A stretch of 32,273 bases of DNA from an uncultured Alphaproteobacteria bacterium (GTDB lineage: Bacteria; Pseudomonadota; Alphaproteobacteria; CAAHEQ01; UBA3637). Every line of letters begins with the position of its first letter. The first letter of the stretch is position 1. The translations under genes were made by a program, and so were the position numbers. The notes below the pieces were generated by a model. The model had not been told where the DNA came from, did not search any database, and saw only the letters and a program-made list of their open reading frames with translations. The stretch covers positions 1 through 32,273 of the forward strand of contig CALXUB010000003.1 in NCBI GenBank assembly GCA_944391565.1, in the 5' to 3' direction. Shown piece by piece: positions 3,753-8,206 of this stretch.

Positions 3753-3828
3753 GGGGATATAGCTCAGCTGGGAGAGCGACGCGTTCGCAATGCGTAGGTC
3801 AGGAGTTCGATCCTCCTTATCTCCACCA
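3753..3828 (+). tRNA. tRNA-Ala(CGC)
   Basis: 76 bases fold into a complete cloverleaf: acceptor stem GGGGATA/TATCTCC, D stem GCTC/GAGC, anticodon stem ACGCG/TGCGT, T stem AGGAG/CTCCT with loop TTCGATC, and an encoded CCA end. The anticodon CGC at 3786-3788 reads GCG. The acceptor stem has the G3-U70 wobble pair that specifies alanine. A 9-bp-scale terminator hairpin follows 30 bases downstream, so this is a single-gene transcript. Confidence 0.97.
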
Positions 3829-3859
3829 AATATACTCGTCAGTAAAGACGGTTCTTTAC

Positions 3860-3888
3860 AGACTGGAATTTTCCAGTCTTATTTTTTT
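3860..3888 (+). terminator. Rho-independent terminator of tRNA-Ala
   Basis: An 8-bp perfect stem AGACTGGA / TCCAGTCT with a 4-base loop is followed by TA and seven T residues (3882-3888). Confidence 0.85.
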
Positions 3889-3970
3889 ATAAAACTTTAC
3901 TATCAAGTATGCGCCTCACAACAATAAATCCATCTTGATCTTGAGCTAAAAATATTTTAAACTAAAAATT

Positions 3971-4435
3971 ATGAAGTATTTATTTTTGATTTTATTAAGC
4001 TCGTTTATCTTTGCAACACAGGCTGAAGAAGTGCGTTTTAAAAACCCCATTTTCTATGGGCCGCTGACAAATAAAAATAAAGTGGGAACTTACGAGTATT
4101 ATATAACTCCGACATCTGTCATCAATAAAGCATACGATGAAACGGAGCAGAAATGTGATCTAATAGAAGATACCGGTTCCAGAGTTTTATTAAAATGTTT
4201 GAATAAATATAATAAATTTTATTATCTGCTGCTCATTAATACAGGCCCCCGTTTAACGCCGGAAAAAAGGAAATTTTTCTACGGAGAAGACAAACTCCCC
4301 TCTTGCCTTATCCAATCATATTACGAAGATGATCTGGACAAAATCATGAAGGGAGAGTTTTGGCTTAGGAATCCGCTTTATGCAACAGACACACTTAACA
4401 ATGAATGTGGAATTTATGAAGACTTTAAGCCTTAG
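3971..4435 (+). CDS. Hypothetical secreted protein
   Basis: 154 residues. The first 18 form a classical signal peptide (Lys at 2, hydrophobic LFLILLSSFIF core, cleavage after ATQA). The mature part is polar with four cysteines, which could form two disulfides in the periplasm. No recognised domain. There is no good ribosome site before the ATG, only an A-rich stretch. Codons are noticeably more A/T-rich than in the housekeeping neighbours. Its TAG overlaps by four bases the stop of the convergent gene. Its place directly behind a tRNA gene suggests possible lateral acquisition, but no att-like duplication of the tRNA end was found. Confidence 0.6.
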   Translation: MKYLFLILLSSFIFATQAEEVRFKNPIFYGPLTNKNKVGTYEYYITPTSVINKAYDETEQKCDLIEDTGSRVLLKCLNKYNKFYYLLLINTGPRLTPEKRKFFYGEDKLPSCLIQSYYEDDLDKIMKGEFWLRNPLYATDTLNNECGIYEDFKP

Positions 4436-4944
4436 TCAAAAGAAGCCTCTATAAACCACTTGTAAATTTGGTCATTTCTTTCTTGATTTACATCTTTTCG
4501 GTGGGATTGTTTGGCTGCCTCTTTATAATCTTCTACTTTCAAAGCATGAAATAAATTTGGCCATTTATCGGCATTAAATTTCATGTTGCCGATATTGTAC
4601 TGCATATCCATAACGGCCAGTTTTGCGGTTCTGGGCAAATAATCAAATTCAATTTCATTGTCACGCAATTTTTCTTTTAGTAATGGCAAATCTTGCCTGA
4701 TATGCTCTCTGGCAAAACGCTCCATATTTTCTTCACTGATTTTTGCTTCTTGAAATACAGATAAAATCGGATCATTTCTTTGAGCTTCAACTATCTTATT
4801 ATAGTGACCGTTTTCGACAACAACATCTTGTATTATTTTGCATTCTTCGTATAACTTTTCTTTTTCTTTTTGTGACAAGCGTTTACCTTCTTCATTTTCA
4901 AATGGGATTTTAGTAGAGTGATATGTAAAAAAATTGCTCCCCAT
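4432..4944 (-). CDS. Lysozyme-like protein lacking the usual catalytic lobe
   Basis: 170 residues, started at the ATG preceded by AAAGGA; an in-frame TAA two codons upstream excludes a longer product. The C-terminal half (about 103-168) follows the T4-lysozyme/pesticin-type pattern: LPxxxKLAVMDMQYNIG, an aromatic W-P-x-L-F-H-A-L turn, DYKEAA, and a final R-N with aromatic residues. The start corresponds to a point after the Glu/Asp/Thr catalytic lobe of true muramidases, and I see no equivalent EG..Y..GxxTIGxGH segment. It has no signal peptide. It could be a remnant, a non-enzymatic relative or an immunity-type protein. Codons are A/T-rich like the convergent partner. Family assignment is tentative. 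Confidence 0.5.
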   Translation of the reverse strand: MGSNFFTYHSTKIPFENEEGKRLSQKEKEKLYEECKIIQDVVVENGHYNKIVEAQRNDPILSVFQEAKISEENMERFAREHIRQDLPLLKEKLRDNEIEFDYLPRTAKLAVMDMQYNIGNMKFNADKWPNLFHALKVEDYKEAAKQSHRKDVNQERNDQIYKWFIEASFD

Positions 4945-4985
4945 TTTCCTTTAAGTTATTTTTTTGGTGCTTTGACCTTTCTTTG

Positions 4986-5018
4986 AAAAAGGAGACTGCC
5001 GGAGCAAGCCCCGGCAGT
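4986..5018 (-). terminator. Terminator of the radical SAM operon
   Basis: A perfect 8-bp stem ACTGCCGG / CCGGCAGT (4995-5002 and 5011-5018) with an 8-base loop is followed on the minus strand by CTCC and five T. It lies 26 bases past the radical SAM stop codon. Confidence 0.8.
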
Positions 5019-5043
5019 TAGATGAAACAGAGGAAATGACAGC

Positions 5044-6093
5044 TTATGACGCAGCTGTCAATTGTTGTTCGGCAGCAATTTTATAGAACTCTTCAAGTTC
5101 CATTCCTTGCATTGTTTTGCCGAACCGGACTTCCCCCAGATTTTTGCGGTAATGTTTGCGCTCAGGATGAGCTGCAATAAGAACATTACGCCGATCAATC
5201 ATCTTGGCAATGAGGGCTTTCTTTTCCTCATAAGGAAGTCCTTGGATTTTGAACATCTCGTTGTCATTCAGACAAACGGATGTCATACCCTGCGGTGTGA
5301 TGCGTAGTTTATGGCAGTCACCGCAGACGTATCCCCATGAAAACATGGCCAAAAGTCCGAAGGAAACATTTTTACCCATGATTTTATAATAACGCATGGT
5401 TGGATTGTCTCCGGCAAACGGGCAATTTAAGGTTCTTTCAACAGCACCTTCTTTGGCTATTTCCATTAAGATTTCTTTTTCAGTCACATATTCTTGTTTC
5501 CAATAAGTTTGTCCTTCTGTACTGAGCTGATTGGGCTGACATGGGAAAAACTGTAAGAAACGGATAAGAATACGTTCTTGGCCGAAACGTGTGTTATACC
5601 CGTCGGCCAATTTGATAAAACGACCGACTTCATGTAGATTGTCTTTCATGACAACCATATTGATTTTGACTGTTTTATCTGTTTGTGTCATAACGGCGTC
5701 CAGACCTTGCAGTACTTGGTCCAAGCAGTAAACGGTTGTCACTTCGCCAAATAAGTCGGGATCTAAGGTGTCGAGGCTGATATTGAAACGACTGACACCG
5801 GCATCGACCAGAGGGCGAGCCAACGGTCCGAGAAGTTGACCGTTTGTCGTAATGGATTGCTCTTGGTATCCCAGATCTTTGGCATAATGCATCAATTCCA
5901 AAATATTCTTTTTGACCAGCGGTTCACCTCCGGTCCAATGGACACGTTGAATATTGTTTTCATAAGCTGCTTTTAAAATTTCTTTGATCTCATCATCGGG
6001 AATTCCTTTTTCCAATTTGCCGTGAGAATGACAATATTTACACTTGAAATTACAAGCCGACGTGACGGCAAAACGCAGATGCCAGTTGTTCAT
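5044..6093 (-). CDS. MoaA-like radical SAM enzyme with second Fe-S cluster
   Basis: 349 residues. C14-x3-C18-x2-C21 binds the SAM-cleaving [4Fe-4S] cluster and TGGEP (54-58) is the SAM-binding loop. Further MoaA-like elements are ITTNG (81-85) and a NISLDTL strand. Near the C-terminus C257-x2-C260-x13-C274, within a GDCHKLRITPQG context, matches the auxiliary cluster of GTP 3',8-cyclase. The C-terminal Gly-Gly of MoaA is absent and no moaC, moaE or moeA lies nearby. Its start overlaps the HD gene stop in an ATGA, so the two are translationally coupled. It is the last of four genes that all have nucleotide-type folds. I infer a radical reaction on a nucleoside triphosphate or related substrate. 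A true molybdenum cofactor role remains the main alternative. Confidence 0.85.
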   Translation of the reverse strand: MNNWHLRFAVTSACNFKCKYCHSHGKLEKGIPDDEIKEILKAAYENNIQRVHWTGGEPLVKKNILELMHYAKDLGYQEQSITTNGQLLGPLARPLVDAGVSRFNISLDTLDPDLFGEVTTVYCLDQVLQGLDAVMTQTDKTVKINMVVMKDNLHEVGRFIKLADGYNTRFGQERILIRFLQFFPCQPNQLSTEGQTYWKQEYVTEKEILMEIAKEGAVERTLNCPFAGDNPTMRYYKIMGKNVSFGLLAMFSWGYVCGDCHKLRITPQGMTSVCLNDNEMFKIQGLPYEEKKALIAKMIDRRNVLIAAHPERKHYRKNLGEVRFGKTMQGMELEEFYKIAAEQQLTAAS

Positions 6094-6650
6094 TTTAAAA
6101 TCTCCATTAAGTAGTTATACAAGTCTTTCATTTCTTCTTTAACAAAATCGAATTGAATTTTATTCCAGGTTCGTTCCATTTTTTCTCGAGTTTCACGTGC
6201 TCCATCATCTATCGACATTTGAAAACGGCCATACCATTTATGAAAAAACGGCAGCGGTTTTTGCAGGTGTGCCATTGCATCGGCGGTGCAGACAATTTTT
6301 TCTTCGACACTGTTTCTGGGGGAGTCCAGTGAACCGCGATGATGGCGAATACAGTCTTCGACCAAGCGGATTTTGGCTTCCGGGTAATGATATTTTTCTA
6401 AAAATTCACGAGCAATGTCCGCACTTGAATTATGATGATTGGCTTTATCGCCCGTGATGCGGGTAAAATCATGGAAGTAGGCGGCTAATTCTACGACTTC
6501 TGCATCTGCGTTCAAGCGTTCTGCTAATCGTAAAGCATTATTGACAACAGGCAAGATATGATGTTTCATCCGATCCGGTTCGCTGGTTTTGGTCAGCAGC
6601 TGAATCACATCTTGACGTATGTCAGGATAGTTCGAGGTGGGGGCAGTCAT
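6090..6650 (-). CDS. HD-domain phosphohydrolase
   Basis: 186 residues with AGGAGA six bases before the ATG. The metal-binding HD set is visible: His30/31, H60-D61 in YFHD, paired histidines at 72-73 and 103-104, and Asp124 in TADAMAHL. This is the layout of small HD hydrolases that remove phosphate from nucleotides or hydrolyse cyclic or alarmone nucleotides; the substrate cannot be read from the sequence. It lies 13 bases after the NDPK-like gene and shares an ATGA with the radical SAM gene. An HD phosphohydrolase paired with a radical SAM enzyme is known from oxetanocin A biosynthesis (OxsA/OxsB), an analogy only, since OxsB is a cobalamin-dependent enzyme of a different type. Confidence 0.85.
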   Translation of the reverse strand: MTAPTSNYPDIRQDVIQLLTKTSEPDRMKHHILPVVNNALRLAERLNADAEVVELAAYFHDFTRITGDKANHHNSSADIAREFLEKYHYPEAKIRLVEDCIRHHRGSLDSPRNSVEEKIVCTADAMAHLQKPLPFFHKWYGRFQMSIDDGARETREKMERTWNKIQFDFVKEEMKDLYNYLMEILK

Positions 6651-6663
6651 TTTTTCTCCTTTC

Positions 6664-7155
6664 TTAGACTTTTGTTTTTTGTTTCCGGGGTGTAAAGGTT
6701 TGGTTGCGGCAGATCAGACGGGGTTTGATAAACGGTCGAACAAGATTAACCTCTCGTTGTGCATCCTCCGGCATTGAACGATGAATGGCGTTGACATAAA
6801 AAGCGACACCGTCTACTTGAATAAGACTGGGTTCAAAGCGATAACGATATCTGAGGCTGTCGGAAGAACATGCTTCGGGGTTAAATGTTTTGCCGCAAAG
6901 TTCAAAAAGTTTAATTTTGGCATTTTCCCCTTTGACGATACCTAAAATGATTTTCTTGTCTGCCAGATAAGAAGCGTTGGCTTCTTTATACGGAGAGATT
7001 TCATTTTCGTGAAAAGTCAACCAAAAATCAGCCGGTAAAGCAATCGGATCGGAAAAGGCAACCGTAAACTGTTTTTTCAGTTCGTTGATTATCTTTTCTG
7101 CCTGTTCCAATGCGGGGGGTTTAATAAAAAAGACAGATTCTTCAAGTGTTGTCAT
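6664..7155 (-). CDS. Nucleoside diphosphate kinase-like protein
   Basis: 163 residues from the ATG at 7155, chosen because GAGGA lies seven bases upstream; an in-frame ATG at 7176 has no properly spaced site. The fold signature runs along the whole length: F-I-K-P with Lys12 near the start, GIVKGENA (72-79) equal to the EGENA strand, SLRYRYR (Arg102), then N122-A-I-H125-R-S127, equal to NxxHGSD with the phosphohistidine, and A-Q-R-E-V equal to AAREI. Thus the main catalytic residues of NDP kinase seem preserved, while overall sequence is strongly divergent from housekeeping Ndk and there is a basic C-terminal tail. It may phosphorylate a modified nucleoside diphosphate made or salvaged by its operon partners. 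The role is inference; the homology is reasonably firm. Confidence 0.7.
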   Translation of the reverse strand: MTTLEESVFFIKPPALEQAEKIINELKKQFTVAFSDPIALPADFWLTFHENEISPYKEANASYLADKKIILGIVKGENAKIKLFELCGKTFNPEACSSDSLRYRYRFEPSLIQVDGVAFYVNAIHRSMPEDAQREVNLVRPFIKPRLICRNQTFTPRKQKTKV

Positions 7156-7165
7156 TTTTGTATCC

Positions 7166-8044
7166 TCAGTTAACATCTCCCAGGTAAACAGTTTGTGCTT
7201 CGGGAGAAATATTTTGCAGATATGGAATTAACGCTTTGGGATAAAAGTCGCTTTTGCCCAGTTGATCTAATGGTATCCAATCAATTTCCTGATTGACGCC
7301 ATCCGGGGCGGCACCTTTGCCCAGCATACTGAAATCTGCTACGTGACACCAAAACATCAGCTCAACCTGATGAAACCGTTGAGAGGCTAATGCGTCGGGA
7401 TGATTTTTCGCGATGTAATCTCGGATAAATAAAAGCCCTTCGGGAATAACAGTAATGCCTAATTCTTCTTTGCATTCACGAACCAAAGCTTCTTTGATGG
7501 TTTCACCCCATTGCTGACCGCCACCGGGTAGTTTACTGAACGCACCGCGGCCATAGTCGCAACGTTCAACCAAAAGCGCATTATCCTTGATTATGACAGC
7601 TTTAATAGAATAACGGCAGCTGTTTTGCTGAAGTAAATCAAACCAGTATAATTGTTGATTTTCGATATTTTTTTCTAAACGAGCTCCCATTTTTTCAAAC
7701 AATTTTTGCGAAGTTTCATCTTGCATCGGACAAAGGATAGAAACTTGTGCAATTTCTTTTTTTCGTGCTTCTGTTAATAGCCAGCGAATCAGCTCCCTTT
7801 TGTGCCGAATCGGATTTGTGTTGTCTAAGACATAAGTTTCCAAATGCGCTTTTTGATGTGAGAGGTCTGCTTTATAACGCAGCTTTCCGACAGCAACACA
7901 AGTCATTCCTTCGCTTAAAACAAATAAATCTTCATCCGGTGTCGGAAGTTCCATATCAATTTTATTTTCAACTAAAAATCTTTTAAAGTCATCAGATGTA
8001 TCGCTGTTTAAGAGAGATGTGAGTTGATAAGCTTTGTCAATCAT
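7166..8044 (-). CDS. GNAT-like domain fused to a Nudix hydrolase
   Basis: 292 residues, first gene of the four-gene minus-strand operon. Residues ~1-137 look like a GNAT acyltransferase-type fold (VAVGKLRY strand, a helix rich in Lys/Arg, a VSILCP strand, then the F-x-K-M-G-A-R-L-E ending). A Nudix domain follows at ~145-290 with a perfect Nudix box, G175-x5-E181-x7-R189-E190-x-x-E193-E194-x-G196, preceded by K-L-P-G-G-G. Nudix enzymes cleave nucleoside diphosphates linked to another group. Its stop lies ten bases before the NDPK-like ATG and supplies part of that gene's ribosome site. The GNAT acyl-CoA loop is weak, so that half may not be catalytic. A housecleaning or processing role for an unusual nucleotide is plausible. 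Confidence 0.85.
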   Translation of the reverse strand: MIDKAYQLTSLLNSDTSDDFKRFLVENKIDMELPTPDEDLFVLSEGMTCVAVGKLRYKADLSHQKAHLETYVLDNTNPIRHKRELIRWLLTEARKKEIAQVSILCPMQDETSQKLFEKMGARLEKNIENQQLYWFDLLQQNSCRYSIKAVIIKDNALLVERCDYGRGAFSKLPGGGQQWGETIKEALVRECKEELGITVIPEGLLFIRDYIAKNHPDALASQRFHQVELMFWCHVADFSMLGKGAAPDGVNQEIDWIPLDQLGKSDFYPKALIPYLQNISPEAQTVYLGDVN

Positions 8045-8100
8045 AGTAAACCTTCTATTTTTATTAAGTTATGACACAATTTAACTCGTTTTATAGTAAG

Positions 8101-8128
8101 CTTATAATCGAAAAATTGTATTTGTCAA
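8101..8128 (-). promoter_or_regulatory. Promoter of the GNAT-Nudix/NDPK/HD/radical SAM operon
   Basis: On the minus strand a perfect TTGACA (8128 to 8123) and TATAAG (8106 to 8101, 5 of 6 matches) are 16 bases apart. The predicted start lies about 50 bases before the first ATG. Confidence 0.6.
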
Positions 8129-8163
8129 TACTTATTTAACTAAAAGTTTTTAAAATTGACATA

Positions 8164-8196
8164 AAAAGACAAAAAAAGAGGAAAAAATTGTCTTTT
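8164..8196 (-). terminator. AT-rich hairpin after the uracil-DNA glycosylase gene
   Basis: A 9-bp inverted repeat AAAAGACAA / TTGTCTTTT with a 15-base loop lies just past the glycosylase stop. The stem is A/T-rich and the T-run on the minus strand is short, so it is a weak terminator at best. A regulatory hairpin is an alternative. Confidence 0.35.
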
Positions 8197-8206
8197 GAGT
8201 TTATAA

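Follow-up and report, generated by a model that had tools for sequence, protein, structure and literature searches.

This window, the whole stretch of 32,273 nucleotides that was analysed, contains a cluster of four genes encoding a Nudix hydrolase, an NDPK-like protein, an HD-domain protein and a radical SAM enzyme that is a relative of MoaA without being a member of that family. We give roughly even weight to the reading that the four genes together make up a nucleotide-modification cassette capable of horizontal movement. With a confidence somewhat short of even, the combination of a MoaA-sister radical SAM enzyme, an NDPK-like protein and an interchangeable Nudix or DUF402 hydrolase may represent a new mobile nucleotide pathway, whose product would be a new nucleotide used as a weapon, as a signal or in phage defence. 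If so, the nucleotide chemistry of radical SAM enzymes gains a branch beside MoaA and viperin, and a use of the MoaA scaffold beyond molybdenum cofactor synthesis would be shown. The operon, compact enough to be expressed whole in E. coli, would also offer a new nucleotide analogue from a source that can be tested. An initial annotation of the window knew of no described system of this composition, and literature searches for a cassette of these family combinations likewise found none.

The four ORFs were confirmed on the minus strand between 8044 and 5044, in the order GNAT-Nudix, NDPK-like, HD, radical SAM. The features of the locus are as follows.

3753 to 3828, plus strand: tRNA-Ala (CGC), identified by ARAGORN
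3830 to 8201, no strand: variable segment, missing from congeners G011 and G012, with the cassette and two ORFs inside (blastn synteny)
4995 to 5018, minus strand: terminator-like hairpin, 10 bp and GC-rich, with a T-rich tail (consensus match only)
5044 to 6093, minus strand: MoaA-like twitch radical SAM enzyme, 349 aa (Pfam Radical_SAM and Mob_synth_C, tree, predicted fold)
6090 to 6650, minus strand: HD-domain protein with H...HD...H...H...D pattern, 186 aa (Pfam HD)
6664 to 7176, minus strand: NDPK-like protein with phospho-histidine motif N-x-x-H, 170 aa (Pfam NDK, predicted fold)
7166 to 8044, minus strand: Nudix hydrolase with weak GNAT-like N-terminal part, 292 aa (Pfam NUDIX, GNAT)
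8101 to 8128, minus strand: promoter-like TTGACA-16-TATAAG (string located; consensus match only)

The start of the NDPK-like gene is ambiguous. The first listed ATG gives an 11-base overlap with the Nudix gene, and an internal ATG (MTTLEES...) gives a 10-base gap. The NDPK-like and HD genes are 13 bases apart and the HD and radical SAM genes overlap (gap −4), so that the one-strand quartet with gaps of 10, 13 and −4 described initially is reproduced, the first value with the internal ATG. The single promoter and single terminator of that description were both located, but such consensus matches are about equally frequent in shuffled sequence.

The initial annotation made its reading depend on co-location of the genes in relatives, and this was found. 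In G040, which belongs to another genus of the same family, the GNAT-Nudix, NDPK-like, HD and radical SAM genes occur in identical order and strand. Three loci from Clostridia MAGs (L003, L004 and L005) hold HD, DUF402, NDPK-like and radical SAM genes together, with no Nudix gene seen, and in a further locus (L006) a Nudix gene follows a radical SAM gene truncated at the end of the contig. The cassette-bearing genomes found number six, all of them MAGs and three of them close kin. Because G040 repeats the whole order, and the Clostridia MAGs share three of the four families, the association appears to go beyond chance. There is support for the proposal that all four products are of nucleotide-type families, and the Clostridia DUF402 gene adds to it: DUF402 enzymes are nucleoside di- and triphosphate hydrolases (PMC11602121). 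Among HD enzymes, YpgQ hydrolyses (d)NTPs and OxsA removes phosphate from oxetanocin phosphates (PMC8177086).

The cassette genes are rare. Searches found the radical SAM gene in 2 genomes among 43 in the order and the HD gene in 1 among 385 in the class; among 398 genomes in the Clostridia phylum, the NDPK-like gene turned up once, in the centre genome itself. No further carriers were found in 398 Bacillota-side or 387 further phylum genomes, apart from a weak match judged to be an ordinary NDPK. The cassette lies just 3' of the tRNA-Ala gene. Synteny with both congeners is lost after position 3829 and returns at 8202; other genes occupy the interval, and in both congeners the tRNA-Ala is also found at the break, so the segment 3' of the tRNA is likely to be an insertion spot. 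Rarity, together with a tRNA-adjacent site that holds other genes in congeners, makes horizontal acquisition probable, and this is the simplest reading. No integrase was found, nor any att-like exact repeats of at least 10 bases between the tRNA end and the segment. Viral or plasmid carriage was rejected on the following searches. The HD and NDPK-like alignments found no relative in viral_contigs. For the HD protein, phages yielded nothing and plasmids just two matches, which come from Halocatena and have different neighbours; the NDPK-like protein had no plasmid match, and its L004 homologue no phage match. The segment also holds ORFs at 3971-4435 (plus strand) and 4432-4944 (minus strand), neither with a Pfam family above cut-off; the latter has a weak phage-lysozyme match.

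The radical SAM protein matches Pfam Radical_SAM (6.4e-26) and Mob_synth_C (5.5e-10). It has two three-cysteine clusters, CxxxCxxC and the MoaA-type CxxC-x13-C, in agreement with the second cluster proposed initially. MoaA (GTP 3',8-cyclase) is the nearest family by profile and also by fold, since the predicted model (pLDDT 83.8) has MoaA as its best match with Z 28.4, the next fold being at 20.7. Even so, an ordinary MoaA of molybdenum cofactor synthesis, with incidental neighbours, is hardly credible. On the MoaA equivalog model the protein scores 186.1 bits against a cut-off of 284 (E. coli MoaA control, 370), and it falls under all three MoaA cut-offs, the main one of which E. coli MoaA clears. 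In a 33-row tree, a cassette clade (support 98/96) stands beside the clade of twelve MoaA (96/97); it consists of the window protein, the copies from L003-L006 and G040, and tandem pairs from G1155 and G647. The C-terminal Gly-Gly present in 12/12 MoaA is missing throughout the cassette clade. MoaC was found in none of the six carrier genomes (G000, to which the window belongs, G040 and G423-G426; controls positive in 11 of 14, G000 94% complete). On these grounds the candidate was rejected. The initial annotation had named grouping inside MoaA, in a genome with moaC and moaE, as the outcome that would speak against it, and the tree and the MoaC search gave the opposite.

No other radical SAM match in G000 is MoaA-like; they are ordinary or unrelated, and by eye comprise MiaB-, MtaB-, HemW-, NrdG- and RlmN-like ORFs and one without assignment. 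G000 also encodes an odd radical SAM-like protein whose score lies under the family cut-off (contig C21, L100 640-1860, minus strand). Matches to the radical SAM protein in the phage collection were set aside, those read being MoaA-like with Gly-Gly tails; one such match has fdhF and moaE/moaC alongside.

The substrate pocket was compared using the numbering of S. aureus MoaA, the reference sequence being identical to a staphylococcal entry in the phage collection. All six cluster cysteines are kept in the cassette copies; a tandem copy, L116_4, is without C278. Within the clade T73, S126, K163 and R268 are retained, and R17, K69 and R192 are either R or K. Two positions differ from MoaA in every member, R266 being replaced by K and R71 by H or S. 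Structure 2fb2, in the structure-match listing, is an R17/R266/R268 triple mutant of MoaA, and these arginines are therefore counted as functional in MoaA. Because R71 and R266 are altered, the substrate may be something other than GTP itself. The sequence comparison and the model suggest that the ligand would be phosphorylated and nucleotide-like, not necessarily GTP.

The NDPK-like protein scores just above the Pfam NDK cut-off (1.4e-6, 28.7 bits against 27), and its predicted model, with a pLDDT of only 68.5, matches NDP kinases. The fold and the phospho-histidine motif claimed initially are confirmed, the motif being kept as N-A-I-H-R-S, and the K, S/T, N and H positions of the active site are retained. 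The kinase step claimed with them is weakened: the canonical YRxxMG arginine is missing from every aligned cassette copy, so the full canonical set is not present. Since one canonical active-site arginine has been lost, the kinase role is putative, and a plain label of kinase is not supported. Genome searches found canonical ndk matches in G011, G012 and G040 and none in G000 or G423-G425. From this pattern it is possible that the NDPK-like protein replaces ndk in some genomes, not in G040; in G000, which is incomplete, the absent portion may contain ndk. Another divergent NDPK-like protein, with the motif NLMHSA, adjoins secA in G000 (contig C21, L140 5861-6328, minus strand), and there are weak NDK matches in congeners G011 and G012 as well.

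The HD protein is clear from Pfam (8.4e-12), and its metal ligands H31, H60-D61, H104 and D124 are invariant in alignment A2. Among 286 other genomes in the Clostridia order, 37 have an HD protein of the same kind standing alone, and the HD protein may for this reason be a general helper. The stand-alone genes (L064-L092), which are common in that order and have around 35-42% identity to the cassette HD, have no conserved partner, no neighbour within 1.5 kb recurring at more than 3 of the 29 loci; a Nudix gene lies near some copies.

The first gene was initially described as a GNAT-Nudix fusion with a perfect Nudix box. The Nudix half holds (Pfam NUDIX 4.5e-13), and the box was read in the sequence (GGQQWGETIKEALVRECKEELGI). 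The GNAT half does not: its Pfam match (0.017, 15.6 bits) is below the cut-off of 24.3, and the glycine-rich acetyl-CoA motif, QNKGKGK in the G040 homologue (56% identity over 227 aa), is missing from the window copy, which reads NPIRHKRE. GNAT activity of the N-terminal part is therefore doubtful.

On the basis of its gene content, the operon would make a modified nucleotide, as proposed initially. The radical SAM enzyme would bind a phosphorylated nucleoside at its second iron-sulfur cluster, a 5'-deoxyadenosyl radical would abstract a hydrogen, and the sugar or base would then be rearranged. Through its histidine, the NDPK-like protein may pass on the terminal phosphate of either substrate or product, or it may alternatively act as a nucleotide-binding phosphotransfer partner. 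Hydrolysis of di- or triphosphates would fall to the HD and Nudix proteins, or to DUF402 in the Clostridia version, and would serve to set the product free or to shield the host from it.

The purpose of such a product could differ. It could be an antimicrobial nucleoside comparable to those of thmA-C or oxetanocin, secreted to harm competitors while the hydrolases give self-resistance; we regard this as somewhat unlikely. In Photorhabdus, 4'-thiothymidine is made by the three-gene cluster thmA-C, which consists of a radical SAM enzyme, a kinase and an NTPase that confers self-resistance (PMC12691670), so three genes suffice. The present cluster resembles it in gene content, as a minimal set of radical SAM and phosphate-handling genes in a mobile site, thmA-C including a nucleoside triphosphatase, but the AbmG-like nucleoside kinase of thmA-C has no counterpart here, and no NDPK-like, HD or DUF402 gene is reported there. 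The oxetanocin pathway similarly pairs an HD phosphohydrolase, OxsA, with a nucleotide-acting radical SAM enzyme, OxsB. OxsB is cobalamin-dependent, whereas no cobalamin-binding Pfam domain was matched within the 349-aa cassette enzyme. The fold matches include two enzymes of modified-nucleoside synthesis, AbmM and BlsE; AbmM of albomycin, a radical SAM enzyme with a nucleoside-type substrate, is ranked fifth by Foldseek. However, AbmM has 19% identity and Z 18, and neither is nearer than unrelated twitch or SPASM enzymes. There is also no exporter within the cassette.

Antiphage defence, in which a chain-terminating or toxic nucleotide would be made upon infection, as by viperins, and the hydrolases would spare the host, is in our judgement unlikely. 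It would fit a variable spot beside a tRNA with different genes in congeners, and the patchy distribution of the cassette genes. Viperins, too, are radical SAM enzymes acting on nucleotides, viperin structures with CTP and UTP are among the listed matches, and prokaryotic viperins (pVip) likewise have nucleotide-related partner genes. The partners are different ones, however, and the cassette enzyme has a second-cluster domain. Its NCBIfam viperin score is 67.6 bits against a cut-off of 180 and covers the core domain, not the full length, so that it was rejected as a viperin; PADLOC gave no defence gene apart from this core match and weak ones for HD and Nudix, and no defence-island neighbours were recognised within the window. 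A modified nucleotide serving within the cell, as a regulator or coenzyme that the hydrolases would switch off, seems quite improbable. One synthase with several degrading enzymes does recall signalling cassettes, and MoaA itself supplies a cofactor pathway, but the cassette has no receptor or effector gene, and no user of a cofactor was found.

The substrate of the radical SAM enzyme could instead be a peptide, an RNA or another non-nucleotide, with the nucleotide genes serving some other task. The changes at R71 and R266 would be compatible with this, as would the tandem pairs of same-clade enzymes beside cysS in G1155 and G647 (L116 8818-10751 and L117 499-2430), near which the other cassette genes were not found. 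We nevertheless consider it a poor prospect: HD, NDPK-like and radical SAM genes are co-located across distant genomes, and most of the basic residues on the phosphate side of the pocket are retained.
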